From: Catellatospora sp. TT07R-123
GTDB lineage: Bacteria > Actinomycetota > Actinomycetes > Mycobacteriales > Micromonosporaceae
Length of the DNA stretch: 64,000 bases
Direction: 5' to 3'
Assembly: GCF_018327705.1 (NCBI RefSeq)
Contig: NZ_BNEM01000001.1
Location: forward strand, 3,472,001-3,536,000
Within the stretch, counting starts at the first letter, position 1. Every line of letters starts with the position of its first letter. Of this stretch, positions 3,049 through 58,446 are shown piece by piece. Under the pieces are notes generated by a model, which saw only the letters and a list, made by a program, of their open reading frames with translations, did no database searches and was not told the origin of the DNA. The position numbers and the translations under genes were made by a program.

Positions 3049-3080
3049 AGCGGCCCGGACGCAGATGCGTCCGGGCCGCT
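3049..3080. terminator. GC-rich hairpin downstream of the GT87 gene
   Basis: A 13-bp perfect stem (AGCGGCCCGGACG / CGTCCGGGCCGCT) with a 6-base loop lies in the gap between two convergent genes. No T-run follows, as is common in GC-rich actinobacteria. Confidence 0.55.
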
Positions 3081-3138
3081 CGTCTGTCCCCCGCCCCTCC
3101 CACCGCACGCCGCCGCGCGACCCGCGCCGCCGGAGGGG

Positions 3139-3196
3139 CAGTTTCGGGGAAAGTGCAGGAATCTTGGGCCGCTTTCGTGCAGTTTCCCCGAAACTG
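3139..3196. repeat. Family B inverted repeat, copy B1 (convergent junction)
   Basis: 19-base arms (3139-3157 and 3178-3196) built on CAGTTTCGGGGAAA and its complement pair with one mismatch around a 20-base loop that begins GGAATCTTGG. Close relatives occur at 47704-47765 and 54863-54934. The copy sits ten bases from the end of the minus-strand gene. The rest of the 2948-3206 gap holds only the hairpin above. Confidence 0.85.
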
Positions 3197-3206
3197 CACG
3201 AACCTC

Positions 3207-4433
3207 TCACCCCCGCGTGGGCACCCGGTCGCGGTGCAGGCGCAGGGTGCAGGCCGGGCGGGGCAGGAACGGGACCGGCGGCAGCTCCTCGGTCACCACC
3301 TCGCGGACCGGCTCGGTGACCGGCGGTTCGGTGCGGCGGCGGGGCGGCCAGACCAGGTCGAGCGGCGCGGCCGCCGGGGCGGGGCCACCGCCCGCCACCG
3401 CCTGGAACACCGTCTCGGCCGTACACGGCGCGCCCGCCGGGGGCGTGCCGGGCCACGGCCGCTCGTCGGCCGTCCTCGGCTGTAGCGGGAGCCGGGCGGG
3501 CGAGACCAGCAGCGTGCCCGGGGCCGCATCGGCCCGCGCGGGCTCGCCTGACGTGAACACCGGCACGACCCGCCCCGGCCCGGTGCCGTATCCGCCCAGG
3601 CCCGGCACGATCGGCATCGGCGCGGCGTCGCGCCCGTTGAGACCGGGCACGATCGGCACCGGACCGGCCGCCGGATCGGTCACGGCCGCGGCGAGCTCCA
3701 CCGTCGGCGTCCGGCCCGCCGGGACGACCGGGGGCGGGCCGGCCGCCGCCGTGACGGCCCCGCGGTCCTCGACCGGGCGGCTGGGCCAGGCGAGCAGCAC
3801 GTATCCGAGGGTGAGCGCGACGATCCCGAGGATGAGCAGGCCCCACGAGGCGGTACGGACCCAGTCGGCGTGCACCGCCACGTCCAGATGGGCGGCGTGC
3901 CCGGCCGCCGTTCCGTCGCGCAGGACGACGACCAGCGCGACCCGGCGGCCCCGGTCCTCGCCCGGCCGCCACGACAGCGAGCCGATGCCCTGCCGCTGCC
4001 AGAGGTCCTGCGCCTCCGGGTCGGCCGGCTCGGCGCCCTGGGCGCCCTGGCCCTCCACCCGCTGCGTCCGCACCGGCAGCTGTCCCCGCCCCAGCTGCAC
4101 CTGCGAGATCTCGGTGTAGCGGACCCCGGCGAGATACTCGGCGACCCGGCCCGGGTCGGCCACGCCGAGGAAGGCGGGCGTGCCGCCGGAGCTGACGCTC
4201 AGCCGCAGCGTGGTCTCACCGACGCGGGCGTACGGCGCGTCGCGGCGCAGCAGCGCGTCCAGGTCCGGCACGACCAGGACCCGGTCGGGCCGCTCGATCG
4301 GCACCAGGTCGGCGTGGAACGCCCCGTCCGGGCTGGGGTGGCGCATCACCCACCAGGCCACCACGCCGCCGGCCGCCGCCGGGATCGCGACCAGCAGGGC
4401 CAGTATGCCGACGATCCACCGCAGCCCGCGCAT
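3207..4433 (-). CDS. Membrane-anchored protein of unknown function, Pro/Gly-rich C-terminus
   Basis: Not recognised. The 408 residues contain an N-terminal membrane segment (about residues 5-30, ILALLVAIPAAAGGVVAWWV), an extracytoplasmic region of about 170 residues, a second membrane helix (LLILGIVALTLGYVLLAW), then about 190 residues of low-complexity, probably cytoplasmic sequence with repeated PIVPGL and VVPVF motifs. The ATG at 4433 is chosen because GGAGG lies ten bases upstream; a longer frame starts at 4460. It is the last gene of the minus-strand run after ycnI but 129 bases from it, so co-transcription is uncertain. Two membrane segments plus a repetitive tail could suit a scaffold or regulator. 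Confidence 0.6.
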   Translation of the reverse strand: MRGLRWIVGILALLVAIPAAAGGVVAWWVMRHPSPDGAFHADLVPIERPDRVLVVPDLDALLRRDAPYARVGETTLRLSVSSGGTPAFLGVADPGRVAEYLAGVRYTEISQVQLGRGQLPVRTQRVEGQGAQGAEPADPEAQDLWQRQGIGSLSWRPGEDRGRRVALVVVLRDGTAAGHAAHLDVAVHADWVRTASWGLLILGIVALTLGYVLLAWPSRPVEDRGAVTAAAGPPPVVPAGRTPTVELAAAVTDPAAGPVPIVPGLNGRDAAPMPIVPGLGGYGTGPGRVVPVFTSGEPARADAAPGTLLVSPARLPLQPRTADERPWPGTPPAGAPCTAETVFQAVAGGGPAPAAAPLDLVWPPRRRTEPPVTEPVREVVTEELPPVPFLPRPACTLRLHRDRVPTRG

Positions 4434-4562
4434 CCGCGTGTCCCTCCGACCGGGCGGCACCCACGGCGCGGCTCGTCCACGCCGCCGCCCCTCGGGGACA
4501 ACGCGGCCGGGTGCCCCCAGACGCGGGCACCCGGCCGATGTACTCCGTGCGGAGGCGAGCGG

Positions 4563-5273
4563 CTACGCCGTCCCGGTCGGCTTGCGGGTACGGGCCAGCG
4601 CCAGGCCTGCCAGGATCAGCGCGAGCACGCCCGCGACCAGCCCGGCGACGCCGGTCCAGCCGCTGCCGCCGTCGGCCTTCCCGTCCTGGGCCAGCGGCAC
4701 GGTCGCCGCGGCGGTCGTCTGCGCGGCCGCCCCGGTGGTGGTGGCCGCGGTCAGCTTCAGCACCGGCGCCGGGCTCTCGGCCTCGGTGCCGTCGCCCGCG
4801 GGCTCGTCGATCCAGCGCACCACGGTGCCGTCGGAGTAGGTCTGGAGTGCCTTGAAGACCATCTGGTCGACGGTCGGCAGCGGACCCAGCGAGATCGGGA
4901 ACTCCTGGAACTGGCCGGGCTTGATCGCGGCGTCGGCGGTGGCGACCCAGGTGACCACCGAGACGACCTCGCTGACCGGGCTGCCGTGCACCTCGATCGG
5001 CTTGTCCAGCTTGCGCTTGGTGACCGTGGCGGTCCAGCCGGGCACCGGCGAGGTCATCACCGAGGCGACCGGCGCGTCCTCGGGCAGGTGCACCTCCAGC
5101 CTGGTGGTGCTGTCGGTGTCCGACTCGTTCGGCACCCGGAACGCCAGCCGGGCGTATCCGCCCTGCACGGCGCTGCTCGGGTTGACGGTCACGTGGGCCG
5201 AGGCGGGCACTGCGACGGCCACCAGGCCGAACACGGCCGCAGCCACCACACCGAGGCGACGCATCGTCTTCAT
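4563..5273 (-). CDS. ycnI: YcnI-type copper-binding membrane-anchored protein (DUF1775)
   Basis: 236 residues. A signal peptide ends at ASA, so the mature protein should start HVTVNPSSA. In Bacillus YcnI the DUF1775 domain binds Cu(II) using the N-terminal His (a mono-histidine brace). The domain spans about residues 27-150, with the conserved YARLAFRVPNE and PGWTA stretches. A low-complexity linker (TAATTTGAAAQTTAAATV) and one C-terminal helix (about 205-228, VAGLVAGVLALILAGLAL) then anchor it outside the membrane. It lies 34 bases downstream of copCD on the same strand, the usual pairing in actinobacteria, and points to copper delivery or storage at the cell surface. Confidence 0.9.
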   Translation of the reverse strand: MKTMRRLGVVAAAVFGLVAVAVPASAHVTVNPSSAVQGGYARLAFRVPNESDTDSTTRLEVHLPEDAPVASVMTSPVPGWTATVTKRKLDKPIEVHGSPVSEVVSVVTWVATADAAIKPGQFQEFPISLGPLPTVDQMVFKALQTYSDGTVVRWIDEPAGDGTEAESPAPVLKLTAATTTGAAAQTTAAATVPLAQDGKADGGSGWTGVAGLVAGVLALILAGLALARTRKPTGTA

Positions 5274-5307
5274 GTCTGGACCTTTCCTACGGCTCGCGGC
5301 GCGAGCA

Positions 5308-6966
5308 CTAAGAGATCGGCACCGTGGCGGTGACCGACGCTTGATCGATTTCAGAGGTGCGGAGCGTGAACTTCAGCTGCCACTGGCCCGGCGTGGGCAG
5401 GGTGACCTGCCCGCTGGCGTGGTTGTCGGTCAGCTTCAGCACGGTGAACGTGATCGGCTCGATGCCCGCCGAGGGCAGCGCCGCGGTCGCCTTCCACTCC
5501 AGCACCGGCAGCGGATCGCCGGTCGGGGTGTAGGCGTACAGGTGGACCAGGTTGTCGCCGACCTTGTTGCCCGGGTCGATCTCGACCTGGAGCGTGTAGA
5601 GCTTGGTGCTCAGCGCCGTCGAGTACAGCTGCTGCTGCGCCACGCTCTCGGCGGTCTCGGCCGCGGTGCGGGCCGGGGTGGTCTGGGTCAGCGCGCCGGT
5701 CAGCGCCAGCACGACCGCCGCGACCGACAGTTCGACCAGGACCACCCGGCGCAGCGGCTTCGGCGCGTCGGCGGCCCCGTTCAGCACGTGGCGGCGGGCG
5801 AGCCAGGCCGCGATCAGTGCGATCGCGACCAGGCCGACCTTGACCAGCAGCACCCGGCCGTACGTCGTCTGCACCAGCGCCAGCGGGGTGCCGACCTGGA
5901 TCAGCCCGGACACCACGCCCGCGAGCAGCACCGTCGACACGGCCAGCGACGCCCAGCGGGACCAGATCGGCAGGATCGCGCCCAGCTCGCGGGCGTCGGC
6001 CTTGCGCAGCAGGTATGCCCCGAGCATGAGCAGGCCGCCGAGCCACACGGCGGCCCCGGCCAGGTGCAGCGCGTCGACGGTGACCGAGACGGGCGGCACC
6101 GGCGAGGCGGCCGGGTGCCCGGACAGCGGCCACGTCAGCGCGCCGATCCCGGCCACGGTCAGCAGCAGCGCCCGGTCGACCGGGCCGTCGCGCCCGGCCA
6201 GCAGCGGCCGGACCAGGATCGCGGCGACGGCCAGGCAGGCCAGCCGGACCAGGGCGGCGATGCCGTACTGGCTGCCCAGCACGTCACCCAGGTCGCCCGC
6301 GGTCGCCCCGAACAGGGAGGTGCCGGTGGTGTACGGGGCTTGCAGGTACAGCCCGGCCAGGGTGGCGAAGGCGACCAGGCCGAAGCCGGCCCACATCAGC
6401 CTGCGCGGGCCGCGGCGGTCCAGGCGGCCGGGCCAGAGCAGGGCCAGCACCAGCACCGGGCCGACGATGAGCACGAGTCCGGCGTACCCGATGACCTTGA
6501 TGATGGCGATCAGCGTCTGGATGGTCGGGTCGACCTTGTCCTCGGCGGGGGCGGCCGGGGTGGCCGAGGGGGCGCCGACGGAGAAGGTGAAGCCGCCGGG
6601 CACCGGGTGGCTGTCGGCGGAGACGATCCGGAAGCTGACCAGGTATGTCCCGCGCGGGGCGTCGTCGCGCAGCCCGATGCGCAGCACGTTGCCGTCGACG
6701 GTGGGGGTGCCCCGGTCGGCCCGCTCGCCGTCCGGGCCGATGATGCGGATCTTGTCGGTGACCGGGGTCACCGGCTCGCTGAAGGTGAGCTGCACCTCCT
6801 GCGGGGCCTTCGGCACGACCGACCCGGCCGGGGGGTTGGTGCGCAGCAGCGCGGCGTGGGCGTACGCGGGGCTGCCGGGCAGCAGCACCATCAGCGCGAA
6901 CGCCGCCAGCGCCAGCAGCGCGCGCACCGGGCGCACGAAAGATCGAGGGGTCTTCACATCGGTCAC
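5308..6966 (-). CDS. copCD: CopC-CopD fusion copper protein
   Basis: 552 residues in two parts. After a signal peptide ending AYA, a CopC domain begins HAALLRTNPPAG and includes SADSHPVPGGFTFSV. The N-terminal His plus the Asp and His of SADSHP are the known CopC Cu(II) ligands. Then a CopD region with about eight membrane helices (residues about 155-430) and a C-terminal extracytoplasmic domain of the YtkA-like type (TLQVEIDPGNKVGDN to the end). The GTG at 6966 overlaps the anti-sigma stop (GTGA), so translation is probably coupled. CopCD fusions are linked to copper import or cuproenzyme loading rather than efflux. Gene order anti-sigma, copCD, ycnI suggests control by the divergent sigma factor. 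Confidence 0.9.
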   Translation of the reverse strand: MTDVKTPRSFVRPVRALLALAAFALMVLLPGSPAYAHAALLRTNPPAGSVVPKAPQEVQLTFSEPVTPVTDKIRIIGPDGERADRGTPTVDGNVLRIGLRDDAPRGTYLVSFRIVSADSHPVPGGFTFSVGAPSATPAAPAEDKVDPTIQTLIAIIKVIGYAGLVLIVGPVLVLALLWPGRLDRRGPRRLMWAGFGLVAFATLAGLYLQAPYTTGTSLFGATAGDLGDVLGSQYGIAALVRLACLAVAAILVRPLLAGRDGPVDRALLLTVAGIGALTWPLSGHPAASPVPPVSVTVDALHLAGAAVWLGGLLMLGAYLLRKADARELGAILPIWSRWASLAVSTVLLAGVVSGLIQVGTPLALVQTTYGRVLLVKVGLVAIALIAAWLARRHVLNGAADAPKPLRRVVLVELSVAAVVLALTGALTQTTPARTAAETAESVAQQQLYSTALSTKLYTLQVEIDPGNKVGDNLVHLYAYTPTGDPLPVLEWKATAALPSAGIEPITFTVLKLTDNHASGQVTLPTPGQWQLKFTLRTSEIDQASVTATVPIS

Positions 6967-7604: not shown

Positions 7605-7726
7605 GGGCGGGTAGTCGGCGCTCGGGGGCGTCCGGTTCCCGGCGGCACGGAGGAATCAGCGTGGCGTGGGACACGCACAGCGTCACCATTCCGTGACCGA
7701 CCGATCGGCCGTTAGGCTTGCTCCCC

Positions 7727-8308: not shown

Positions 8309-8326
8309 CGGCGTGGAGGAGGAGAC

Positions 8327-8887
8327 ATGAGCGGTTGGCACAGGGCACAGCCGTGGGTGAGCCTGGTCGTCCGGCTCGCCCTCGCCGGGGTCTTCCTGAC
8401 CGCGGGGCTGCTCAAGGTGTCGGACCTGGCCGCGACGGGACGCGCCGTGAACGCGTACCAGATCCTGCCGTACGACCTCGCCATGGCCTTCGGGGCGGCG
8501 CAGCCGTTCGTGGAGATCGCCCTCGGCCTGCTCCTGCTGGTCGGCCTGGCCACCCGCCTGGCCGGCTGGATCAGCGCGGTCACCATGGTCGCCTTCATCG
8601 CGGGCATCTCCTCGGCCTGGGCCCGCGGCCTCAACATCGACTGCGGCTGCTTCAGCAAGGGCGGCGTGCTCCCGCCCGGCGTCACCCCCAACTACGTTCC
8701 GGAGATCCTCCGGGATGTGGCCTTCCTGGCGATGGCCATCTTTTTGATCATCTACCCGGTCAGCCGTTTCTCCCTCGACGCACGACTGGATCAACCGTCC
8801 GCGACGGACGCCGTGTTCGAGGAGTATGACGATGACGACAACGAAGACGAGCCTGCCGCCGCGGCGGCACGCCAGAAGCGGGCGTGA
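8327..8887 (+). CDS. MauE/DoxX-family redox-associated membrane protein
   Basis: 186 residues with four membrane helices (about 12-30, 55-75, 82-102, 125-148). Between helices three and four lies a Cys pair in NIDCGCFSKGG, typical of MauE-like proteins that pass electrons through the membrane to periplasmic thioredoxins. The C-terminus is a very acidic patch (EEYDDDDNEDE) followed by a basic end. It has a good Shine-Dalgarno (GGAGGAG) and follows the sigma gene by 18 bases. Next to the DsbA-like gene it probably supplies reducing or oxidising equivalents to that thioredoxin. Confidence 0.85.
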   Translation: MSGWHRAQPWVSLVVRLALAGVFLTAGLLKVSDLAATGRAVNAYQILPYDLAMAFGAAQPFVEIALGLLLLVGLATRLAGWISAVTMVAFIAGISSAWARGLNIDCGCFSKGGVLPPGVTPNYVPEILRDVAFLAMAIFLIIYPVSRFSLDARLDQPSATDAVFEEYDDDDNEDEPAAAAARQKRA

Positions 8888-8905
8888 CCTGGCGGCGGTG
8901 ACGGC

Positions 8906-9640
8906 ATGAGCAGCCGCAAGGACCAGAACGCCGCGGCGCGGCTGGTGCGCGAGCAGATCGCCGCCGAGAAGCGCCGCAAGCGCACCCTGTACATCACGAT
9001 CGGGGCGGTCGCCGCGCTGGTCATCGCCGGCCTGATCGGCTGGAGCCTGTACGCGTCGAGCAAGAGCGGCGAGTACACGGCCCCGCGCAACACCAACAGC
9101 GCGGGCAGCGGCGTCGTGGCGGGCGCGGGCCCGGTCACCGTCGACGAGTACGTCGACTTCCTGTGCCCGCACTGCAAAGCCTTCCACGACGACTACGGTG
9201 CCCAGGTCAAGCAGCTCGTCGACGACAAGAAGATCACCCTGGTGACGCACCCGGTGGCATACCTCGACGGCGCCTCGACCAACCGCTACTCGACCCGGTC
9301 GTCCGCCGCCTCCGGCTGCGCCGCCGACGAGGGCAAGTTCGCCGAGTACGCCGACGCGCTGTTCGCCAACCAGCCCGCCGAGGGCACCGCCGGGCCCAGC
9401 GACGACGACCTGGTCGCCCTGGGCAAGACGGTCGGCCTGGGCGACGCCTTCGGCCAGTGCGTCCAGGACAAGAAGTTCGTGACCTGGGCGGACCACGTCA
9501 CCACCGAGGCGGGCAAAGCCGGTGTCAGCGGTACGCCTACCGTGCTGGTGAACGGCAAGCCGGTCCAGGCCACCGGCCCGGCCATCGCGGCGGCGGTCGC
9601 CGAGGCGACCGGGGCCAAACCCACCCCCACCGTGAGTTAG
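8906..9640 (+). CDS. Membrane-anchored DsbA-like thioredoxin-fold protein
   Basis: 244 residues: a basic cytoplasmic N-terminus, one membrane helix (about 28-50), then a thioredoxin-fold domain with active site Cys87-Pro-His-Cys90 and an inserted helical part characteristic of DsbA. The cis-proline loop is visible as GVSGTPTVLV. CPHC is the DsbA active-site motif, so it is likely a thiol oxidase or isomerase on the outer face of the membrane. It sits between the MauE-like gene and the 391-residue membrane protein gene in one operon. Two other Cys (about residues 133 and 185) could form a structural disulfide. Confidence 0.9.
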   Translation: MSSRKDQNAAARLVREQIAAEKRRKRTLYITIGAVAALVIAGLIGWSLYASSKSGEYTAPRNTNSAGSGVVAGAGPVTVDEYVDFLCPHCKAFHDDYGAQVKQLVDDKKITLVTHPVAYLDGASTNRYSTRSSAASGCAADEGKFAEYADALFANQPAEGTAGPSDDDLVALGKTVGLGDAFGQCVQDKKFVTWADHVTTEAGKAGVSGTPTVLVNGKPVQATGPAIAAAVAEATGAKPTPTVS

Positions 9641-9648
9641 CAGGTCAG

Positions 9649-10824: not shown

Positions 10825-10857
10825 CCGGCGGCCGTCCCGGCCGCACCCACTTTCCGC

Positions 10858-10896
10858 CCGCAGACGGCGATCTTGCCCGAAGATCACCGTCTGCGG
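10858..10896. repeat. Family C inverted repeat, copy C1 (convergent junction)
   Basis: CCGCAGACGG...GATCTT pairs with AAGATC...CCGTCTGCGG around a 5-base loop, one mismatch. Thirty bases on (10926-10950) is a second half-copy of the family core GACCGCAnAC, then CGATCACC. Related cores occur at 15111-15184, 24141-24190 and 49218-49242. Confidence 0.75.
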
Positions 10897-10984
10897 TCAT
10901 TTCCGACGCTTCAGCAGCAGGTTCCGACCGCAAACACCGATCACCCTGCCCGGCCCGGCCCGGTGTGGTGCGGGGAATGGCTGG

Positions 10985-12519: not shown

Positions 12520-12523
12520 CTGC

Positions 12524-15110: not shown

Positions 15111-15184
15111 GCGGTGAAGATCGCTGGCCGCGGTCGGAAACTGCGCCGTAGGTCCAGGTTGTGACCGCAAGCGACGATCACCGC
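15111..15184. repeat. Family C inverted repeat, copy C2 (convergent junction)
   Basis: Outer arms GCGGTGA (15111-15117) and TCACCGC (15178-15184), inner arms GCGGTC (15130-15135) and GACCGC (15163-15168). A tandem half-copy lies just before (GCGGCGAAGATCGCCGG from about 15076). It occupies nearly the whole gap between two convergent genes. Confidence 0.7.
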
Positions 15185-15621: not shown

Positions 15622-15665
15622 GAAGGGCACCTTCTACATCGCAGCGCGATGAGAAGGTGCCCTTC
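15622..15665. repeat. Family E inverted repeat downstream of the S8 protease gene
   Basis: GAAGGGCACCTTCT (15622-15635) pairs perfectly with AGAAGGTGCCCTTC (15652-15665). The inner stem continues with CATCGC/GCGATG after a one-base bulge, closing on a 3-base loop. The 'GAAGGGnnCCTTC' style of element is, from memory, frequent between genes in Micromonospora-like genomes. It sits 30 bases past the protease stop codon and may act as its terminator. Confidence 0.7.
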
Positions 15666-15695
15666 CTTACCTCACGACCTCACACGGCGCGGAGG

Positions 15696-18600: not shown

Positions 18601-20057
18601 TGCGGGCCGCGCGGCGCGGCCGTGACCGCCGCGTACGCGTCGAGCCGGCCCTCGCCGAAGTTGTTGTTGTCGTCGACGGTGCCGCCGCAGCCGAGCGAGT
18701 CGACGTCGACAGCGGTGTCGTCGAGCAGCGCCTTGGTGGCGTCGATGTCGCCCTTGAGCGCCGGGGCCGCCGACCACAGCAGCGCGACGGTGCCCGCGAC
18801 GTGCGGGGACGCCATCGAGGTGCCGCTGAAGGAGTCGTACCCGCCGCCCGGCACGCTGGAGCGCACGTTCACGCCCGGGGCGGCGATGTTCGGCTTGATG
18901 CCGCCGTCCACCTCGGACGCGCCGCGGCTGCTGAAGCCCGCGATGACGTTGCCGCTGTTGTAGGCACCGGCCGAGTACGACTGCGGGTAGTCGCCGGGCG
19001 AGCCCGCCGTGCCGCAGTTCGGGCCCTCGTTGCCGTTGGAGAACATCGGGAAGATGCCCGCGGCGATCCAGGCGTCGACGGAGTCCTCGTACCAGAGGTC
19101 GCCGCCGCTGCCGCCCCACGAGTTGTTGACCACGTCGGGGTGCAGGTCGGGGCGCGGGTTGTTGCCGGCCCGGTCGGTCGGGGCGAGCACCCACTGCGCG
19201 GCGGCCAGCAGCGACGCGTCGGAGCAGGTGTTGACCTCGCAGCCCTTGGCCGCGATCCACTTCGCCCCGGGCGCGACGCCGATCACGTTGCCGGCGCCGT
19301 CGTCGCCGACCATGGTGCCCATGGTGTGGGTGCCGTGGTCGTTGTTGTCGCAGGGCGTGCCGCCGGTGCAGATGCCGGTCGGGTCGAACCAGTTGTAGTC
19401 GTGGCTGAACGTGCCACCGGTGTTGCCCCGGTACTTGCCGACCAGCGCCGGGTGGTCGTACTGCACACCGCTGTCGATGTTGGCCACGACGATGCCCTCG
19501 CCGCGCACGCCGTACTCCGACCAGACCTGCGGCGCCTTGATGTTGTCCAGGCCCCATTCCACCGCGTTGACGGTCGCCTGGTCCGTGCCCTGGATGGGCT
19601 GGACCAGCGGGTACGTCTTGGAGGGCGCGATGGAAGCCACGCTCGGCTCGGCGGCCAGCGCGTCGACGACCGACTGGTCACCGGTCACCAGCAGCGCGTT
19701 GGCGATCCAGAACGACCGGTACGAGACCTTCCGGTCGTCCAGCAGCGCCCGCACGTCCCGCTGGCTGGTCGCCGCGGTGGCGGTCAGCGCGGTGTAGACG
19801 CGGGTGGCACGCTCGGTCGAGCTCGCGGCGCTCGCCGCCGGGCTGAGGTCGGCCCGGTCGCGCAGATACACCAGGAACCCGGTGCTCCCGCCGCCCGCCA
19901 CCGCGGCGCGCACCGCCGCGCTGACCTCGGCCTTGGGCGCGGGCGCCGCCTGCACCGCCACCGCGGGCACGGTGGTGGCGGCCAGTAGCAGCACCGATAT
20001 GGCGGCCAGGCGTTGCGGCCACCGCGACCGGCTGCGACGCCGGTTGGCTTGTGACAT
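15696..20057 (-). CDS. Secreted subtilisin-like S8 serine protease with kelch repeats
   Basis: 1453 residues; ATG 20057 has GGGGAGG seven bases upstream. Signal peptide 1-38; I9-type propeptide about 60-150; S8 catalytic domain about 170-480 with Asp195 (NIDSG), His241 (NDHGTHTMG), oxyanion Asn near 341, and Ser414 (GTSMASPHV). Then carboxypeptidase-regulatory-like beta domains (from about 485), a MAM/immune-inhibitor-like domain (about 640-800), a further beta domain, about five kelch repeats (about 1040-1290, AVGGKLYVLGGW-type blades) and a C-terminal beta domain with Cys at the end. Secreted multi-domain protease, probably for protein scavenging. Divergent from the winged-helix regulator. 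Confidence 0.92.
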   Translation of the reverse strand: MSQANRRRSRSRWPQRLAAISVLLLAATTVPAVAVQAAPAPKAEVSAAVRAAVAGGGSTGFLVYLRDRADLSPAASAASSTERATRVYTALTATAATSQRDVRALLDDRKVSYRSFWIANALLVTGDQSVVDALAAEPSVASIAPSKTYPLVQPIQGTDQATVNAVEWGLDNIKAPQVWSEYGVRGEGIVVANIDSGVQYDHPALVGKYRGNTGGTFSHDYNWFDPTGICTGGTPCDNNDHGTHTMGTMVGDDGAGNVIGVAPGAKWIAAKGCEVNTCSDASLLAAAQWVLAPTDRAGNNPRPDLHPDVVNNSWGGSGGDLWYEDSVDAWIAAGIFPMFSNGNEGPNCGTAGSPGDYPQSYSAGAYNSGNVIAGFSSRGASEVDGGIKPNIAAPGVNVRSSVPGGGYDSFSGTSMASPHVAGTVALLWSAAPALKGDIDATKALLDDTAVDVDSLGCGGTVDDNNNFGEGRLDAYAAVTAAPRGPHGTVTGTVTDAATGTVLAGATVSVPGRTVTTAANGSFELSVPAGANEVTASKYGYHASTQTVTVAEDATVTQNFALTPAPMVTVSGKVTDGSGHGYPLYARLDVAGGPGVPVFTDPFTGRYSVNLPGNATYQFSTAALYPGYRTATTPVVLAAAAKTVNIAVGVDPGCTAAGYASAFTAPLLSQDFGGGSLPAGWTANARTADGNWSFTDAGARGNLTGGTGGFAILDSDNLGQGKTQDADLITPVVDLSGSGAPYLRFNSDYRAFSNSIADVDVSTDGTTWTNVWHQTTTNLRGPRVEQIALTSLAGSATARIRFHYKGTWAWWWQVDNVEVVNRTCSPVPGGLVAGLTTDANTGAGLNGVTVTSTDVPGDKATSAATPDDAALADGFYWLFSTVTGTHPFAATKAPYAPLSKSVAVAADGIKRADFALKSGRLTISPTTVQSFQPYNSTRKTTLTVTNTGSAAATVQVLERGGDFSILGRAGAPLMESKLPGGKAPRGMTGVAGTRPAASTPAAAGAWAPIADYPVEVFDNAAAALEGKVYSVGGGSGTGNENKAFRYDPATGAWAALPNLPTGRAKPQVAAVGGKLYVLGGWNGSGTPISSVDVFDPVAGTWSTLSGVINPKPRSAAGIAVANGKIILVGGCTDSSCTDSTDTVIFDPSANVFTLGAAYPQGVAWMSCGGVSGKVYCAGGSGDADFDNGFAYDPAANSWSPIADMPFDLWGSAGTSAGGLLVLAGGVTDGSTTVTNKTIAYDPAANAWLTLPNAANAVYRAGAACGAYKIGGSPTSFVGSKKSEFLGDLGQCDEATEVTWLSENPASFTLAAGKSRTITVTLTATPAAGVQQPGKYEAQLALRSDTPYPVSGVDVEMNVSPPPNWGKIQGTVLGQSCAGGLVGVPAIVRVNLLDIPDTGWTLRAGADGSFAYWVPKGNYEVIVAKDGWIPEATRLKIEAGIVRTADFTLDPLDAC

Positions 20058-24081: not shown

Positions 24082-24114
24082 CGAGGGGCCCCGCCGATTC
24101 GGCGGGGCCCCTCG
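24082..24114. terminator. Strong hairpin after the M14 carboxypeptidase gene
   Basis: A 14-bp perfect stem (CGAGGGGCCCCGCC with its complement) closes a 5-base loop 15 bases after the stop codon. It lacks a T-run. Confidence 0.7.
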
Positions 24115-24140
24115 CTCATGATCGGTGTTTCGGGTCGTTC

Positions 24141-24190
24141 TCTGCGGTCTGGGCGCACTTTCTGACCGCAGACAGCGATCACCGCCCCGG
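24141..24190. repeat. Family C inverted repeat, copy C3 (convergent junction)
   Basis: TCTGCGGTC (24141-24149) pairs with GACCGCAGA (24164-24172), followed by the family C core ending CGATCACC. It lies between the carboxypeptidase terminator and the end of the minus-strand methyltransferase gene. Confidence 0.7.
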
Positions 24191-28878: not shown

Positions 28879-30158
28879 TCCGCTGCGAGTACGCCTGGCT
28901 GCCCGACGGGGTGGCCGCCGACGTGCTGATCGAGATCCGCGACGGCCGGATCGTGCGCGTGGCGCCCCGCTCCGGCGAAGCCGCCGAACGGCGCGCCGGG
29001 ATCACCGTCCCCGGGTTCGCCAACGCGCACTCGCACGCGTTCCACCGGGCCCTGCGCGGCCGCACCCACTCCGGCCGCGGCGACTTCTGGACCTGGCGCG
29101 ACCAGATGTACACCGTCGCCCGCACCCTCGACCCCGACTCCTACTACCGCCTGGCCAGGGCGGTCTACGCCGAGATGGCCCTGTCCGGCGTCACCGCCGT
29201 GGGCGAGTTCCACTACCTGCACCACGCCCCCGGCGGCACCCCGTACGCCGACCCGAACGCGATGGGCCACGCCCTCGTCGCCGCCGCCAAGGACGCGGGC
29301 CTGCGCATCACCCTCCTGGACACGCTCTACCTGACCGCCTCGGTGGACGGCAAACCCCTGGAGGGCCCGCAGCTGCGCTTCGGCGACGGCGACGCGCTGC
29401 GCTGGGCCGAACGCGTGGACGCCATCGAGGACCAGCCGCACCTGGTCGTCGGCGCCGCGATCCACTCGGTGCGCGCCGTCCCGACCTCGCAGCTGCCCAC
29501 GATCGCCGCCTGGGCGGGCGGGCGCCCGCTGCACGCGCACGTGTCGGAGCAGGTCGCCGAGAACGAGGCCTGCCTGGCCGAGCACGGCCGTACGCCGACG
29601 CAGGTGCTGGCCGACTTCGGGGCGGTGCACGAGACGTTCTCGGCGGTGCACGCCACGCACCTGACCCACGCCGACATCGCGCTGCTGTCGGGGTCGTACG
29701 CCTGCTTCTGCCCGACCACCGAGCGCGACCTCGGCGACGGCATCGGCCCGGCCCGGACCCTGGCCGACGCGGGCGTCCGGCTGACCTTGGGCAGTGACAG
29801 CCACGCGGTCATAGACTTCTTCGAGGAGTCGCGGGCGCTGGAGCTGAACGAACGCCTGGCCACGCAGCGGCGCGGGCACTTCACCCCGGCGGAGCTGCGC
29901 ACGGCGGCCACCGGCCACACCAGCCTGGGCTGGCCCGACGCGGGCGCGATCGCGGTCGGCAGGCGCGCCGACCTGGTCACCGTCTCGTTGGACAGCGTGC
30001 GGACCGCCGGGATCGAGCCCGAGGGCGTGCTGTTCGCGGCGGGCGCCGCCGACGTCACGCACGTGGTCGCGGACGGCCGCGAGATCGTCCGCGACGGGCG
30101 GCACGGTTCGGTCGACGTGCCGCGCGAGCTGCGGGAGGCGATCACGTGCCTGTTCTGA
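28872..30158 (+). CDS. hutF: Formimidoylglutamate deiminase
   Basis: 428 residues, amidohydrolase superfamily. Metal-binding HxH is in [14 protein letters not shown]; further ligands lie in LHAHVSEQ (His) and the [15 protein letters not shown] stretch (Asp, His). Converts N-formimino-L-glutamate to N-formyl-L-glutamate and ammonia, marking the five-step histidine pathway. GTG 28872 overlaps the upstream gene's last codons (GTGCTGA), so coupled translation is likely. hutI follows after a 40-base gap. Confidence 0.93.
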
Positions 30159-32957: not shown

Positions 32958-32970
32958 GGGCCCCCACCCC

Positions 32971-33107
32971 GTCGATCATGAACCTATGGCACGGTTCAGC
33001 GGCGTGTCGTGTGCACGGCTTCCTGATCGTTTCCGCGCAGCGGGATGGTCAACAGGAGGTTGTGCACGCGACACGCCGTCGAGCCGTGCCATAGGTTCAT
33101 GATCGAC
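32971..33107. repeat. Family A long inverted repeat, copy A1 (convergent junction)
   Basis: 137 bases. The terminal arms (32971-32994 and 33084-33107; start GTCGATCATGAAC) are 24 bases and perfectly complementary. After a short internal loop the pairing resumes: GGCGTGTCG, then GTGCA, with their partners at 33062-33078, one G-U pair. The centre holds a further small CCTG/CAGG stem. It can fold almost end to end. Paralogues are at 39815-39973 and 61068-61128. No open frame or transposase is present. Confidence 0.85.
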
Positions 33108-33146
33108 GCGGAGAGACCCCCGACGGACCGGCGGTGGGCTGGGCGG

Positions 33147-39781: not shown

Positions 39782-39814
39782 CCCCCGGCCGCAGGCCAGG
39801 CCCCGCCTCTCCAC

Positions 39815-39973
39815 GTCGATCATGAACTTATGGCACGGGTCGACGGCGTGTTGCGTGCACAGCTTCCTGATCAACTGCCGGTGCGGCAGGACCTGCCCGC
39901 TGGGGCAGGAATGGTCAACAGGAGGTTGTGCAGGCGACACACCGTCGAGCCGTGCCATAAGTTCATGATCGAC
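39815..39973. repeat. Family A long inverted repeat, copy A2 (convergent junction)
   Basis: 159 bases. Perfect 24-base terminal arms (39815-39838 and 39950-39973) that differ from copy A1 by one base in each arm, at paired positions (CTATGG/CCATAG becomes TTATGG/CCATAA). Inner pairing TCGACGG...TGCA is also kept with a few wobbles or mismatches. The middle carries an extra small hairpin (GCAGGACCTGC). It fills most of the gap between the 3-helix protein gene and cysM. Confidence 0.85.
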
Positions 39974-40018
39974 GGGGGATACCGGGCCGGGAGGCCTGGG
40001 CGGACGGGCGGTGGGGGG

Positions 40019-47703: not shown

Positions 47704-47765
47704 TGCAGTTTCGGGGAAACTGCAGGAATCTTGGTGCGGATTCCAGCACTTTCCCCGAAACTGCA
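47704..47765. repeat. Family B inverted repeat, copy B2 (convergent junction)
   Basis: The left arm TGCAGTTTCGGGGAAACTGCA pairs with the complementary right arm ending at 47765, one mismatch; the loop again begins GGAATCTTGG as in copy B1. It lies between the nei stop and the end of the convergent MFS gene. Confidence 0.85.
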
Positions 47766-47819
47766 CCGGCCGCCGCCCGGCGGCGCGCGTGGCGCGGCGC
47801 GGCCGGTGAGGGGCGCGGC

Positions 47820-49064: not shown

Positions 49065-49217
49065 TGCGGTTGTTACCTCCAGCCGACCATGGTGCCCGAC
49101 ACCCCCGACTTTCAGGCAATCCGTTTACCGGCTGACCCGGGGTAATTCCCGTCACCTTGATCGCCGCCGCCTTGATCGCCATCGCCGGTCACGAAGTCAC
49201 GCCAGGCCGCACACTTC

Positions 49218-49242
49218 GACCGCAAACGCCGATCTTGCCGCC
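49218..49242. repeat. Family C core, single copy C4
   Basis: GACCGCAAACGCCGATCTTG matches the family C core of copies C1-C3, but no opposing arm is nearby. It lies in the tandem gap 49065-49350, which otherwise holds the ctaD terminator and nothing else recognisable. Confidence 0.55.
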
Positions 49243-49333: not shown

Positions 49334-49350
49334 GTGAAGCAGGTGGTGGG

Positions 49351-51223: not shown

Positions 51224-51252
51224 GGCGGCCCGGTCACGCGGGCCGGGCCGCC
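51224..51252 (-). terminator. Hairpin after the small membrane protein gene
   Basis: 10-bp perfect stem (GGCGGCCCGG/CCGGGCCGCC) with a 9-base loop, 24 bases past the stop. The rest of the 51076-51275 gap shows no gene. Confidence 0.6.
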
Positions 51253-51275
51253 GTTCACGTTCGGCGTGTCGCTGG

Positions 51276-51569: not shown

Positions 51570-51681
51570 CGATCGTCCTCCCCAGGGGATGGGATCACGC
51601 CGGCCGGGGTGCCGGCGACCGCCACAGGCTAGACGCCCACCGGCGGCTTCGCATCGCGGGAAACGTGAGATGGTCTTAGGT

Positions 51682-53952: not shown

Positions 53953-54791
53953 TGGGCCGGGCCAGCGACCGCCGTGCCGTCACCCGGATCGACCTGTCCG
54001 GCGGCGCGTCCGCCGCGCGCCGCCCGGACACGCTGGCCGCCGAGGAACCGCTGGAGATCCGGGTCGGGCACCGCGGCGGGCCCCGCCCGCCGCTGGCCGT
54101 CACCATGCGCACCCCCGGCGACGAGCTCGACCTCGCCCTGGGCTTCCTGCTCACCGAAGGCGTCATCACCGCACCGGACGACGTGCACACCGCCCAGCTG
54201 TGCGCCGGAGCCGAGGTCGAGAACAGCTACAACGTGGTGGACGTGGTGCTGGCCGAGCACGTGCCGCCGCCGCAGGCGGGGACGGAGCGCAACTTCTACA
54301 CCACCAGCTCGTGCGGGGTCTGCGGCAAGGCCAGCATCGACGCGATCCGGGTGCGCTCGCGCCACGACGTCGCCGCCGACCCGGTGGCGGTCGATCCGGC
54401 CGTGCTGGCCGGGCTGCCCGACCGGCTGCGCGGGGCGCAGCGCACGTTCGAGCGCACCGGCGGCCTGCACGCGGCCGGGCTGTTCACGGCCGCCGGGGAG
54501 CTGGTGACCGTACGCGAGGACGTCGGGCGCCACAACGCCGTCGACAAGGTGATCGGCGCCGCGCTGCGGGCCGGGCGGCTACCGCTGGCCGGGCACGTGC
54601 TGCTGGTCTCCGGCCGCGCCAGCTTCGAGCTGACCCAGAAGGCGTGGCTGGCCGGGATACCGGTCCTGGCCGCGGTGTCGGCGCCCAGCACGCTCGCCGC
54701 CGACCTGGCCGACGAGGCCGGGATGACGCTGGTCGGCTTCCTGCGCGGCCCGACCATGAACGTCTACACCCGCCCGGACCGCCTCACCTGA
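53952..54791 (+). CDS. fdhD: Formate dehydrogenase sulfurtransferase FdhD
   Basis: 279 residues. The conserved CxxC is Cys121-Gly-Val-Cys124 in [10 protein letters not shown], which receives sulfur from a cysteine desulfurase and transfers it to the molybdenum cofactor. [16 protein letters not shown] and RGPTMNVYT are family signatures. Translationally coupled to fdhF, as in mycobacteria. A family B repeat lies 71 bases past the stop. Confidence 0.95.
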
Positions 54792-54862
54792 CCCGCGCCG
54801 CGCCGCCGCGCCACGCCGCCATGCGGGCGCCACGCCGCGCGCCGCGCGCCGCCCCGCACGCG

Positions 54863-54934
54863 GTTCGTGCAGTTTCGGGGAAAGTGCACGAAAGCGGGCC
54901 GTGATTCCTGCACTTTCCCCGAAACTGCACGAAC
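54863..54934. repeat. Family B inverted repeat, copy B3 (convergent junction)
   Basis: Perfect 26-base arms (54863-54888 and 54909-54934; GTTCGTGCAGTTTCGGGG core) around a 20-base loop, the best preserved copy. The loop CGAAAGCGGG matches the reverse complement of the B1 loop, so this copy is in the opposite orientation. Confidence 0.9.
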
Positions 54935-54939
54935 GCCAG

Positions 54940-55689: not shown

Positions 55690-55803
55690 GATTCACAGCC
55701 TGACCGGTGACCGGGGCGCTTGTCGACCCGCCCGGCGGCATGGTTGAGTCTGCGCCAGTACGTAAGCGCCTTGGTCACCGTCAACGTCACTGGAGTGATC
55801 ACC

Positions 55804-56505
55804 ATGGCCGACCCGACCGACCCCGCGACCCAGGACGCGCACCTCGAGACGGTCGACATGCTGCTGCACCTGTCGCGGCGCTCGCAGGCGATGGTGGACC
55901 GGCTCATCGGCTGCCTGGACCGGATGGGCCAGCAGGAGCACGACCCGGAGCGGCTGAAGAACTTCTTCGAGCTGGACTTCCTGGCCCTGCGGATGCGGCG
56001 TAACGACGAGAGCCTGCTGGTGCTCGCCGGGGGCGAGTCGGCGCGCATCCGCCGCGATCCGGTGCCGCTGGAGGAGGTGCTCCAGGGCGCCTGCTCGGAG
56101 GTGGAGGACTTCCGCCGGATCGAGTTCGGGGTGGTCGAGCCGGGCCTGGTCGTCGCCGCCCCGGTCGTCAACGACCTGGTGCACCTGCTGGCGGAGCTGT
56201 TCGACAACGCGGCCGCGTTCTCCGCGCCCGACACGAAGGTGCTGGTGGAGGTGCGGCGCGTCACGGACCGGGCGGTCATCCTGATCGAGGACCGGGGTAT
56301 CGGCATCCCCCCGGCGCGCCTGCGCGAACTCAACCAGCGCCTGGCCCAGCCGACCCCGCCCAGCGCGATCACGGTCCGGCAGATGGGCGTCGGGGTGGTC
56401 GGCCGGCTGGCCCAGCGGCACGACATCCGGGTCGAGCTGGAGCCCGCGGGTGAGCGCGGCATCGCCGCCTCGGTGGTGCTGCCCTCGCACACTCTGGCGG
56501 GATGA
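55804..56505 (+). CDS. Stand-alone histidine-kinase-like ATPase
   Basis: 233 residues from ATG 55804. The N-terminal 75 residues are a two-helix bundle (LLHLSRRSQAMVDRLIGCLDRM...LDFLALRMRRNDESLLVLAG) resembling the helical part that precedes the ATPase in conservon-type sensor kinases; no H-box with a phosphorylatable His near E is obvious (HLSRRSQ is the nearest). The HATPase_c domain follows with LLAELFDNAAAFS (N-box), IEDRGIGIPP (G1) and GVGVVGRLAQRH. No membrane segment, no sensor. It ends 82 bases before lysS. May act as a regulator by binding ATP or a protein partner. Confidence 0.75.
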   Translation: MADPTDPATQDAHLETVDMLLHLSRRSQAMVDRLIGCLDRMGQQEHDPERLKNFFELDFLALRMRRNDESLLVLAGGESARIRRDPVPLEEVLQGACSEVEDFRRIEFGVVEPGLVVAAPVVNDLVHLLAELFDNAAAFSAPDTKVLVEVRRVTDRAVILIEDRGIGIPPARLRELNQRLAQPTPPSAITVRQMGVGVVGRLAQRHDIRVELEPAGERGIAASVVLPSHTLAG

Positions 56506-56587
56506 GTCCGGGGCGGGCGTAAAACCCGTTCACGGCATCCGGGAGAATGGGGGGACACCCTCAACTCACGGAAAGGACGTGCTGGTC

Positions 56588-58327
56588 GTGGCTGTAAGCC
56601 CCGAGGCCGACTGGGTCTCCCGCTTCGCGGATGAAGTGATCGCCGAGGCGGAGCGTCGCGCGCCGGGCAAACCGATCGTCTGCGCGTCCGGCCTGAGCCC
56701 GTCGGGCCCGATCCACCTGGGCAACCTGCGCGAGGTGATGACCCCGCACCTGGTCGCCGACGAGATCCGCCGCCGCGGCCACGAGTGTGTGCACCTGATC
56801 TCCTGGGACGACTACGACCGGTTCCGCAAGGTCCCGGCCGGGGTCCCGGGCATCGACGAGACCTGGGCGCAGCACATCGGCAAGCCGCTGACCTCGGTGC
56901 CCGCCCCCGCCGGCAGCAGGTACGCCAACTGGGCCGAGCACTTCAAGGCGCCGATGATCGAGTCGCTGGCGCAGCTGGGCGTGGAGTACCACCCGATCAG
57001 CCAGACCGAGCAGTACACCACCGGCAAGTACCGCGAGCAGATCCTGCTGGCCATGCGCGAGCGGGCCCGCATCGACGCGGTGCTGGACCGCTACCGCACC
57101 AAGAACCGCACCGCCGGGGGCGCCCAGCCGGGCAAGCTCGACGAGGAAGAGGCGGCCGCCGCCGCGGAGGCCGCCGAAGGTTCGGGCGCAGCCGGCGAGG
57201 ACGACGGCAACACCGTGGCGGGGTACTTCCCGTACAAGCCGTACTGCTCGGTGTGCGACCGCGACCTGACCACGGTGGTGGCGTACGACGACGAGACCAC
57301 CGAGCTGGACTACACCTGCGCCTGCGGGCACGCCGAGCAGGTCCGGCTGTCCGAGCACAACCGGGGCAAGCTGGTCTGGAAGGTCGACTGGCCGATGCGC
57401 TGGGCGTACGAGGGCGTGATCTTCGAGCCCTCGGGCGTGGACCACTCCTCCCCCGGCTCGTCGTTCCAGGTCGGCGGGCAGCTCGTGGGCGAGATCTTCG
57501 GCGGCGAGCAGCCGATCGGCCCGATGTACGCCTTCGTCGGCATCTCCGGCATGGCCAAGATGAGCAGCTCGCGCGGCGGCGTGCCGACCGCGGCCGACGC
57601 GCTGGACATCATGGAGCCGCCGCTGCTCCGCTGGCTGTACGCCCGCCGCCGCCCGAACCAGTCGTTCAAGATCGCATTCGACCAGGAGATCCAGCGCCTG
57701 TACGACGAGTGGGACACCCTCGGCCGCAAGGTCGGCGACGGCACCGCCACCCCGGCCGACGCCGCGGCGTACACCCGCGCCGTGGGCACCGCCGCCGGGC
57801 TGCTGCCGGTCACGCCGCACGTGCTGCCGTACCGGACCCTGGCCTCGATCGTGGACGTCACCACCGGCGACGAGGCGCAGACCCTGCGCATCCTGCGCGA
57901 CCTCGACCCGGCCGACCCGGTCGCCTCGCTGGACGAGACCCGGCCCCGCCTGGACAAGGCCCAGCGCTGGATCACCACGCACGTGCCCGCCGACCAGCGC
58001 ACCCGCGTGCTGGCCGGGCCGGACACCGCGCGGCTGGCCGAACTCGGCGAGACCGAACGGGAGTCGCTGCGGCTGCTGCTGGCCGGGCTCGACGAGCACT
58101 GGTCCCTGGAGGGCCTGACCACCCTGGTGTACGGCGTGCCGAAGGTCATGCTGGGGCTGCCGCCGGACGTCAAGCCGACGCCGGAGCTGAAGACGGCGCA
58201 ACGGGAGTTCTTCGCGCTGCTGTACCACCTGCTGGTCGGCCGCGACACCGGCCCGCGCCTGCCCACGCTGCTGCTGGCGGTCGGCCCGGACCGCGTCCGC
58301 ACCCTGCTGACCCCCGCCGCGGCCTGA
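56588..58327 (+). CDS. lysS: Lysyl-tRNA synthetase, class I type
   Basis: 579 residues. Class I signatures: PSGPIHLGN (HIGH, residues 38-46) and KMSSS (KMSKS, 324-328), with the Rossmann fold and a zinc-like Cys set (Cys220-x2-Cys223, Cys244-x-Cys246). The HIGH/KMSKS set is diagnostic of the class I LysRS otherwise typical of archaea and some bacteria. An Ala/Glu-rich insert (about 180-207, EEEAAAAAEAAEG) is likely a flexible loop. GTG 56588 is chosen because AAGGA lies ten bases upstream; GTG 56579 is too near that site. Charges tRNA-Lys. Confidence 0.93.
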   Translation: MAVSPEADWVSRFADEVIAEAERRAPGKPIVCASGLSPSGPIHLGNLREVMTPHLVADEIRRRGHECVHLISWDDYDRFRKVPAGVPGIDETWAQHIGKPLTSVPAPAGSRYANWAEHFKAPMIESLAQLGVEYHPISQTEQYTTGKYREQILLAMRERARIDAVLDRYRTKNRTAGGAQPGKLDEEEAAAAAEAAEGSGAAGEDDGNTVAGYFPYKPYCSVCDRDLTTVVAYDDETTELDYTCACGHAEQVRLSEHNRGKLVWKVDWPMRWAYEGVIFEPSGVDHSSPGSSFQVGGQLVGEIFGGEQPIGPMYAFVGISGMAKMSSSRGGVPTAADALDIMEPPLLRWLYARRRPNQSFKIAFDQEIQRLYDEWDTLGRKVGDGTATPADAAAYTRAVGTAAGLLPVTPHVLPYRTLASIVDVTTGDEAQTLRILRDLDPADPVASLDETRPRLDKAQRWITTHVPADQRTRVLAGPDTARLAELGETERESLRLLLAGLDEHWSLEGLTTLVYGVPKVMLGLPPDVKPTPELKTAQREFFALLYHLLVGRDTGPRLPTLLLAVGPDRVRTLLTPAAA

Positions 58328-58389
58328 CCCCCACCGCGGCCTGACCGCTCCGGTCCCGCCCACCCGGCTCCACCACCCGCTTTACATAA

Positions 58390-58446
58390 ACGTTGGCCTA
58401 TCTCATCGAGTTCGATCTTCTCGGAGTCGATGAGATAGGCCAACGT
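58390..58446. repeat. Element D: 20-bp perfect inverted repeat (convergent junction)
   Basis: ACGTTGGCCTATCTCATCGA (58390-58409) pairs with its exact complement at 58427-58446; the loop is 17 bases. The element is far less GC-rich than its surroundings. It is the only copy in the window. Its arms read as MAYLI on both strands; this is a by-product of the symmetry. Confidence 0.85.

Follow-up and report, generated by a model that had tools for sequence, protein, structure and literature searches.

Palindromic repeat families at the convergent gene junctions of a Catellatospora genome are probably mobile-looking elements tolerated at 3' ends

Several kinds of short palindromic repeats have been described behind or inside bacterial genes. 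In the accessible text of Di Nocera 2013 (PMC3733652), REP sequences are GTAG- or CGTC-tagged palindromes, present in many copies, mostly between convergent and unidirectional genes and near 3' ends; some are located in coding genes, and different REPs occupy about the same recB site in two species. In the accessible sections of PMC10969869, the Rickettsia palindromic elements are described as families of ~150 bp palindromes, many of them in frame in protein genes, and the MITEs and the SPRITE of Streptococcus pneumoniae as short inverted-repeat elements with terminator-like hairpins and clustering. Stem-loops at 3' ends occur, according to the available part of Petrillo 2006 (PMC1590033), in all bacteria studied, more often in convergent than in divergent gaps and preferably within the 50 bp behind stop codons. 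For Streptomyces clavuligerus, the consulted portion of PMC8269248 describes HS-U-lack 3' ends, which are stable hairpins without a U-rich tract, and 55 bidirectional ends. Among open-access titles and abstract beginnings, no paper on the families described here was found.

The window is the whole stretch of 64,000 nucleotides that was analysed. Among the records searched, the closest named relatives by protein identity are a Hamadaea MAG (74%) and Catelliglobosispora koreensis (66%), so that the host probably belongs to Micromonosporaceae. An earlier note on the window had claimed that every convergent gap of more than 100 bases, nine in number, carries a long inverted repeat and that the four families of repeats are unrelated in sequence, and had proposed that they may insulate facing transcription units genome-wide, by bidirectional termination or by cruciform folding. 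An independent gene caller gave identical ends for the nine gaps, and the four families (A, B, C, and D) formed separate similarity clusters at the clustering threshold used. The inverted repeats were compared with 100 dinucleotide shuffles per gap. Those at junctions B1, C3, A1, A2, B2, B3, and D exceeded all 100 shuffles, the C1 repeat was matched by one and is marginal, and the best repeat of C2 was matched by 52 (MFE z -1.6, an ordinary value); the repeat search of the window listed no repeat in the C2 gap. An inverted repeat beyond chance is thus present in seven gaps, and the observation is confirmed in part. The best repeat of C3 belongs to a hairpin that lies outside the family C copy. 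The profile search, in turn, detected a family copy in all nine gaps (B in three, C in three, A in two, and D in one), and C2 proved to be a decayed family C copy. The features are as follows; numbers preceded by G denote genomes of sister species.

3048..3081, no strand: perfect terminator-like hairpin in the B1 gap, outside the families (16-bp perfect arms; no family match)
3138..3199, no strand: family B palindromic element, junction B1 (profile E 8e-19; inverted repeat above all 100 shuffles)
10858..10943, no strand: family C element, junction C1 (a hairpin at 10858-10896 together with a profile match at 10882-10943; 1/100 shuffles)
15119..15181, no strand: decayed copy of family C at junction C2, whose best inverted repeat is not significant (profile E 6e-10; 52/100 shuffles)
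15622..15666, no strand: family G element, tandem gap, absent from the earlier note (profile E 1e-13)
24082..24114, no strand: perfect hairpin in the C3 gap, outside the families (repeat search and shuffles)
24118..24182, no strand: family C element, junction C3 (profile E 7e-11)
28971..28973, + strand: approximate empty site within a hutF-like gene; D or E in frame in sister species (alignment of 10 genomes)
32968..33108, no strand: long family A element, junction A1, two A units head to head (profile match; empty in G005 and G009)
39813..39975, no strand: long family A element, junction A2, two A units head to head (repeat search and profile)
47704..47766, no strand: family B element, junction B2 (shuffles and profile)
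49186..49234, no strand: family C match, weak, tandem gap (profile E 6e-5)
54216..54218, + strand: approximate empty site within fdhD; G-like element in frame in sister species (alignment of 11 genomes)
54867..54930, no strand: family B element, junction B3 (shuffles and profile)
58376..58460, no strand: family D element, junction D (shuffles and profile)
61057..61130, no strand: family A unit, with a tRNA gene on one side and the 3' end of the gene at 61157 on the other, absent from the earlier note (profile E 2e-12)

Two more wide convergent gaps, 742-1001 and 60783-61156, each with a tRNA gene, had been omitted from the nine. Their gene-to-tRNA parts contain hairpins outside families A-D and F-H, and the second additionally contains the A copy at 61057-61130. 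Within the window, the families also occur in tandem gaps, as the weak C match, this A unit, and the G element show.

Eight families, A-H, were recognised in the genus. The elements are 45-170 bp long and, like MITEs, are short, ended by inverted repeats, and present in many copies. The first look at the genome itself gave 226 candidates for B, 170 for A, 101 for D, and 100 for C, numbers in which a palindrome may count on both strands, so that the places are fewer. The best 40 candidates were scored per family; for C, at least 23 matches passed among 40 of the 100. Match numbers from DNA queries in the genome searches are lower bounds, with 15 or 40 candidates scored per genome. Sequences of this genome supplied the family profiles, except that of family E, which came from relatives. 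The arms of the long A elements start with CGTC, inside the paired arms, at both ends.

Placement was counted for seven families over 1.6 Mb of this genome beyond the window. The gaps were taken from the independent gene caller, whose start codons, and hence the lengths of tandem and divergent gaps, are approximate; 10 of the 171 elements, three in genes and seven at stretch edges, were excluded. Of the 172 convergent gaps, 53 held an element; the figures were 57 of 545 for tandem and 15 of 229 for divergent gaps. The families are thus commoner in convergent gaps than in the other two kinds, as would be expected from the earlier note (odds ratio 4.3, p 8e-12, seven families pooled). Over half of the copies are nevertheless located outside convergent gaps. 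Of the 72 copies in tandem gaps, window included, 63 are nearer to the upstream stop codon, and in convergent gaps the median distance to the nearest stop is 30.5 nt. This means that the elements are placed by proximity to a gene end, whether or not the next gene faces it.

The junctions of the window were followed in ten sister species. Among 43 orthologous cases, 17 had the same family, 14 another family, and 12 none of A-H; preservation of position with a swapped family, which had been anticipated, was therefore seen in 14 of the 43. When G003 and G010 were compared, a profile match in either genome was present in 8 of 20 orthologous convergent, 7 of 65 tandem, and none of 21 divergent gaps. 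By profile, the two genomes differed in 6 of the 8 occupied convergent gaps and in 3 of the 7 tandem gaps; such absence calls are fallible. Five of the convergent differences are of presence against absence, and in two of these a C-like copy was seen by eye in the "empty" genome; of the three tandem differences, one concerns the fdhD insert, of which another form is present in G010.

Elements were also found in frame inside protein genes. The hutF site, readable in 10 of 11 genomes, contains D in two and E in six and is empty in two; the fdhD site is filled in eight of 11 genomes and empty in three. E was recognised by eye in the hutF alignment, as was G in the fdhD alignment, and profile matches exist for D in hutF of G005 and for G in fdhD of G003. 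When filled and empty sites were aligned and viewed by eye, they were too diverged for a legible target-site duplication.

These observations make it quite likely that the junction repeats are dispersed REP/MITE-like palindromes that are gained, lost, and exchanged between species, are tolerated at 3' ends, and possibly act as terminators without a U-tract. The copy number, the position behind stop codons, the presence, absence, or swapping of families at orthologous junctions, and the in-frame copies with empty counterparts in two protein genes are observed; the families presumably move by transposition, with turnover visible from one species of the genus to the next. Selection would remove copies near promoters and from gaps inside operons, and convergent gaps would collect most per gap, since two 3' ends meet there and promoters are absent. 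Behind a stop codon, an element may then serve as a U-less hairpin terminator, often for both strands, a step that we propose with less confidence. It would occupy the position that a family-free hairpin has in the majority of the remaining convergent gaps.

Candidates for the moving enzyme and for the mode of insertion were considered. The Y1/RAYT transposase (PF01797) was not found in the genome by a search that was positive in 5 of 14 control genomes, and RAYT was rejected as the mover on this ground; no family was tied to a transposase in this search of the Y1 kind. The A units that occur in pairs with a gene between them are strikingly uniform in orientation. The enclosed genes seem ordinary (ATL-type, thioredoxin-like, and acetyltransferase-like, as named by eye); in 10 of 11 species one and the same small ATL-type gene has A units on either side, and this gene is at the same locus in 11 genomes. 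The A pairs were accordingly rejected as a composite transposon. Targeting of terminator hairpins by insertion was rejected as well: the flanks should pair, but in families A, B, C, D, F, and G, where old remnants may have decayed, their pairing does not exceed that of flanks exchanged at random among copies.

The elements might instead be purely selfish palindromes without a role, held in place by purifying selection alone. This overlaps with the mobility part of our explanation, and we regard it as a real possibility, though on the whole not the expected one. It agrees with the in-frame copies in hutF and fdhD, with the additional copies inside genes of this genome, and with the presence of several families at once in some gaps. 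The pairing of family B is hardly maintained: its arm mismatch of 0.031 is nearly the same as the 0.037 +- 0.002 obtained with arms swapped between copies. In D, F, and G, by contrast, the arms match their own partner clearly better than the arms of other copies (0.058 vs 0.120, 0.077 vs 0.114, and 0.076 vs 0.120), which speaks for maintained pairing unless subfamilies explain it. For family H, the arm comparison comprised only five copies, and the A alignment was without usable structure. A purely selfish nature is also at odds with the avoidance of short tandem gaps. At a residual gap length of 15-40 nt, 8 of 23 convergent gaps contained an element and only 3 of 76 tandem gaps (p 3e-4). Because the lengths are matched, this avoidance hints that the elements affect transcription; it may instead reflect ribosome-binding sites.

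The converse reading is that the elements are dedicated bidirectional terminators, selected to insulate facing units, for which any palindrome serves and families can be swapped. It overlaps with the terminator part of our explanation and seems rather unlikely as a whole. The convergent preference of the single families (odds ratio 2.5-4.3, p < 0.05 in six of the seven), the family swaps at the same junction, the avoidance of short tandem gaps, and the occupancy in the ten relatives (38 of 49 convergent, 40 of 169 tandem, and 0 of 69 divergent gaps, overlapping stretches being counted twice) fit such terminators. However, the density per 3' end is similar, with 0.19 in convergent gaps (65 elements, 344 ends) and 0.17 in tandem gaps of at least 60 nt (69 elements, 418 ends). 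In addition, the statement that every wide junction carries an element does not extend to the genome: outside the window only 46 of 71 convergent gaps of at least 100 nt have one, and 25 do without. Relatives, too, dispense with elements at the same junctions. A1 is empty in G009 and G005, where the facing genes are 10 nt apart or overlap, and B3 is empty in G004 and G001, where they are 5 nt apart.

As to termination itself, a stable hairpin soon after the stop codon is present in eight of the nine window gaps, that of C1 being marginal. A U-tract behind the element was found on 4 of 328 sides in families A, B, C, D, F, and G, against a background of 4 of 495. In convergent gaps shorter than 700 nt, a further hairpin was present in 10 of 59 with an element and in 73 of 113 without. 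This scarcity equals what is expected if the element simply cuts a hairpin (0.17 seen, 0.19 expected) and is therefore no independent proof of replacement; no split hairpin was found in the element flanks. Hairpins exceeding 20 shuffles in gaps of 100-600 nt outside the window (convergent 19/26, tandem 66/142, divergent 20/98) are not special to convergent gaps. Terminator activity, including bidirectional activity, is a plausible prediction from sequence, given that short tandem gaps are avoided and that the elements are placed where other gaps have hairpins.

A role at the DNA level, as cruciforms or protein-binding sites that shape the chromosome around the origin, is improbable. The elements are indeed depleted far from dnaA (contig 1 position 4572284): 5 were found in 18 stretches beyond 3.5 Mb and 166 in 63 nearer pieces, distances that assume joining of the contig ends nearest dnaA, and the chromosome quarter farthest from dnaA is nearly without them. 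The same depletion is expected, however, of a far side made up of younger DNA that changes fast, and the position behind stop codons favours RNA or tolerance. A linear chromosome, as guessed from the positions of the B copies, is one possible reading; the location of dnaA, close to the contig 1 end, fits an origin-centred spread equally well. That the pattern arises merely because a gap is called wide when it has an element inside is very improbable and, as a complete account, refuted. There is some circularity in "wide", since an element adds its own length to the gap (convergent median 160 nt with an element, 84 after its removal, and 50 in gaps without), but the enrichment holds at all gap lengths of at least 15 nt (53/172 vs 72/774) and at matched residual length.

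The proposal of genome-wide insulation is thus retained in part: convergent gaps are favoured, positions are kept with the family swapped, and bidirectional termination is plausible. With about equal density per 3' end, about one third of wide convergent gaps without an element, hardly any elements in the chromosome quarter farthest from dnaA, relatives lacking one at the same junctions, and a gap width that the elements partly create, the evidence does not look like an insulation device. A hairpin at nearly all facing pairs of one window can reflect tolerated mobile repeats and not a designed insulator. We tentatively put forward, as a doubtful but far-reaching extension, that the elements are genus-wide interchangeable mobile terminators, moved by a non-RAYT enzyme, which took over termination at many gene ends, swap at the same sites, and enter genes in frame. 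If the explanation preferred here is right, a good share of transcript-end DNA in the genus would be mobile in origin, and 3' ends, antisense overlap, and even protein linkers would differ among sister species as elements turn over. Movement and termination can both be tested directly on the sites that occur filled in one species and empty in another.

Compared with the REP/RAYT system, the elements share the 3'-end placement in convergent and unidirectional gaps. REP palindromes are 20-40 bp long, whereas those described here are longer, and the genome lacks the transposase; the A units flank the small ATL-type gene much as REPs flank RAYT genes. The host is a high-GC actinomycete, and the string "actinobacteri" is absent from the main text of PMC3733652. 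With the Rickettsia palindromic elements, as described in the accessible sections, in-frame insertion with empty homologues is shared through hutF and fdhD; the likeness is one of description, the phylum is different, and most copies here are behind genes with few inside. MITEs and SPRITE, as far as the same sections describe them, likewise share short inverted-repeat elements, hairpins, and clustering, whereas no target duplication was read here and no parent transposon was found in a search that covered Y1 transposases. In the available part of Petrillo 2006, a small share of the stem-loops belongs to repeat families, whereas one third of the convergent gaps here contain an element. The HS-U-lack ends were mapped experimentally, whereas the U-less hairpins here are known from sequence alone, and repeat families are not mentioned in the consulted portion of PMC8269248. 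The repeats are REP/MITE-like in kind; here the kind occurs without Y1/RAYT, in longer form, in eight families, and in an actinomycete host.

When genes were called again with a purpose-written, independent codon-usage gene caller, the nine wide convergent gaps of the window (GC about 73%) were returned with ends identical to those in the earlier note, which had placed a long inverted repeat in every one of them. Profile searches found a copy of a palindrome family at each of the nine junctions. Seven of the gaps carried an inverted repeat beyond all 100 dinucleotide shuffles, the repeat at C1, a family C junction, was reached by one shuffle, and that at C2 was ordinary. Two more wide convergent gaps between protein genes, with a tRNA gene inside, had been omitted. 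The observation was largely correct, with "all" and "long inverted repeat" slightly overstated. The same searches located three extra copies in tandem gaps of the window, one from a fifth family.

The genome of TT07R-123 comprises 9.17 Mb in two contigs, with the window at bases 3472001–3536000 of contig 1. The window and 80 spaced 20-kb stretches together gave a sample of 1.664 Mb. When intergenic inverted repeats from relatives and from the sample's first half were clustered de novo, the four families already noticed (A–D) emerged along with at least four others: E, seen in relatives only, F, G, and H. The sample held 171 copies of seven families, of which 149 were in gaps outside the window (65 convergent, 69 tandem, and 15 divergent). 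There, convergent gaps contained 44% of the copies and 13% of the intergenic bases, and among gaps of at least 15 nt, 53 of 172 convergent, 57 of 545 tandem, and 15 of 229 divergent ones were occupied. Equal frequency in tandem and divergent gaps, which the earlier note had set against its idea of a genome-wide insulation of facing genes, was not observed: convergent gaps were favoured, with an odds ratio of 4.3 (p = 8e-12). Family by family the ratio was 2.5 to 4.3, with p < 0.05 in six of the seven; the exception was H (5 copies, p = 0.23). Genome-wide, "every" did not hold, as an element was present in 46 of the 71 convergent gaps outside the window that reached 100 nt. The median length of element-bearing convergent gaps was 160 nt, or 84 nt without the element, and that of gaps lacking one was 50 nt; the large width is partly caused by the element itself. 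Farther than 3.5 Mb from dnaA, the seven families were nearly absent (5 copies in 18 stretches versus 166 in 63 pieces nearer), and 2 of 14 wide convergent gaps there had an element. Several families were stacked within one convergent gap at L039 (about 19012–19245), L060 (14594–14982), and L068 (10992–11174).

In tandem gaps, window included, 63 of 72 copies were closer to the stop codon of the upstream gene; the median distance was 46 nt to that codon and 137.5 nt to the next start. Outside the window, the density per 3' end was 0.19 for convergent gaps and 0.17 for tandem gaps at least 60 nt long. The placement rule is therefore "behind a gene end". In addition, short tandem gaps were avoided at matched residual length: 3 of 76 tandem versus 8 of 23 convergent gaps were occupied at 15–40 nt (p = 3e-4), 10 of 138 versus 19 of 78 at 40–80 nt, and 17 of 169 versus 21 of 49 at 80–150 nt; below 15 nt there were almost no elements (0 of 295 and 1 of 57). 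This pattern is consistent with an element that either blocks transcription or damages a ribosome-binding site, combined with the presence of a second 3' end in convergent gaps.

Outside the window, gaps of 100–600 nt had hairpins beyond shuffles in 19 of 26 convergent, 66 of 142 tandem, and 20 of 98 divergent cases, which makes them common between tandem genes as well. For convergent gaps between 20 and 700 nt long, a hairpin was present in 73 of 113 without an element and an additional one in 10 of 59 with an element (shuffled controls, about 1% or less). Cutting element-free convergent gaps at a matched place left 19% with a hairpin; therefore, all that this exclusion shows is a shared place for element and hairpin. 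In tandem gaps with an element, a further hairpin was seen in 6 of 55, below the null (mean 24%, range 14–36%). Since no pairing was seen between the two flanks of an element, nothing pointed to insertion into hairpins. The elements lacked adjoining U-tracts (4 of 328 sides). In D, F, and G, the arms of an element paired better with each other than with those of other copies; in B they hardly did so, and no usable structure came out for A. Another convergent gap of this genome (L059, about 8869–8918) holds a near-perfect palindrome around CCACATGTGG that belongs to none of the families.

Orthologous junctions were compared in ten genomes of the same genus, in which the two anchor genes lay at the expected spacing wherever they were on one contig; two stretches were read per genome, some being shorter at contig ends. 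For six window junctions there were 43 orthologous convergent cases. The family matched that of the window in 17 and differed from it in 14, and the other 12 held none of A–H. The swapping of families at a preserved position, for which the earlier note had proposed to look, was thus found in 14 of 43 cases. Junction A1 was empty in the two nearest species, where the facing genes were 10 nt apart or overlapped; seven other species had E, A, or C there. At junction A2, the three species without A had another hairpin. Junction D had family D in five species, E in three, and none of A–H in two, both with another hairpin. In G004, the junction orthologous to window 58328–58511 contains a palindrome beginning GCCGTGCTCGTTTCGGGACGC, which matches none of the profiles A–H. 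Occupancy in the stretches read from relatives was 38 of 49 for convergent gaps, 40 of 169 for tandem gaps, and 0 of 69 for divergent gaps, overlapping stretches being counted twice. Two sister genomes, G003 and G010, share 95% identity across the first stretches; across 103 kb of the longer set, the figure is 93%. By profile, they differ in six of eight occupied convergent gaps, in two of which the profile missed a C-like copy visible in the alignment, and in three of seven occupied tandem gaps, one difference being the fdhD insert described below.

Elements also occur inside genes. At one site of a hutF-like gene (window about 28972; relatives L233–L252), D was found in two and E in six of the ten readable genomes, and the site was empty in TT07R-123 and G001; the insertions are in frame, and the reading frame is open in 10 of 10. 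In fdhD (window about 54217), a G-like palindromic insert of varying length was present in 8 of 11 genomes and absent from three including TT07R-123, and the frame stays open, filled or empty. Further copies lie within called genes of TT07R-123. Filled and empty versions of one coding site are the clearest sign of element gain and loss.

Neighbouring A units within 3.5 kb share their mutual orientation, strong ends outward, in 12 of 13 pairs (dimers, 7 of 7; wider pairs, 5 of 6), some of which are orthologous and hence not all independent (L077, window 32970–33108, L069, L071, L243, L076, L248, L060, L141, L049, L097, L067, and L094). Oppositely oriented A units lie on either side of a small gene, named by eye, in 10 of 11 genomes (L344–L354), G001 having a single unit:

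L049:3743–4036, small ATL (alkyltransferase-like) type gene, copy of TT07R-123

This arrangement is unlike the rapid turnover elsewhere. Family B was detected in each of the 11 genomes from the genus, among them TT07R-123, but in none of 50 others. The same 11 genomes all carried family A, as did 3 of the 50 others; one genome of the same taxonomic family had 15 matches, and a Hamadaea contig had weak ones. Family G had one occurrence in another genome of that taxonomic family (L261).

The elements are best regarded as mobile-looking palindromic repeats, which selection would confine to the spaces behind genes. They may also terminate transcription, a role likely enough to be tested. Within the open-access literature searched, and as far as that search shows, these families in an actinomycete without a Y1 transposase (REP-associated transposase, RAYT), the exchange of one family for another at a single junction, and the in-frame copies of these families are new. 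A general preference for convergent gaps and 3' ends has been published for stem-loops (PMC1590033, in the part consulted) and for REPs (PMC3733652, likewise). According to the portions consulted, Rickettsia palindromic elements (PMC10969869) similarly lie inside protein genes, and some REPs (PMC3733652) inside coding genes. The A units flanking the ATL-type gene are reminiscent of REPs around RAYT genes.
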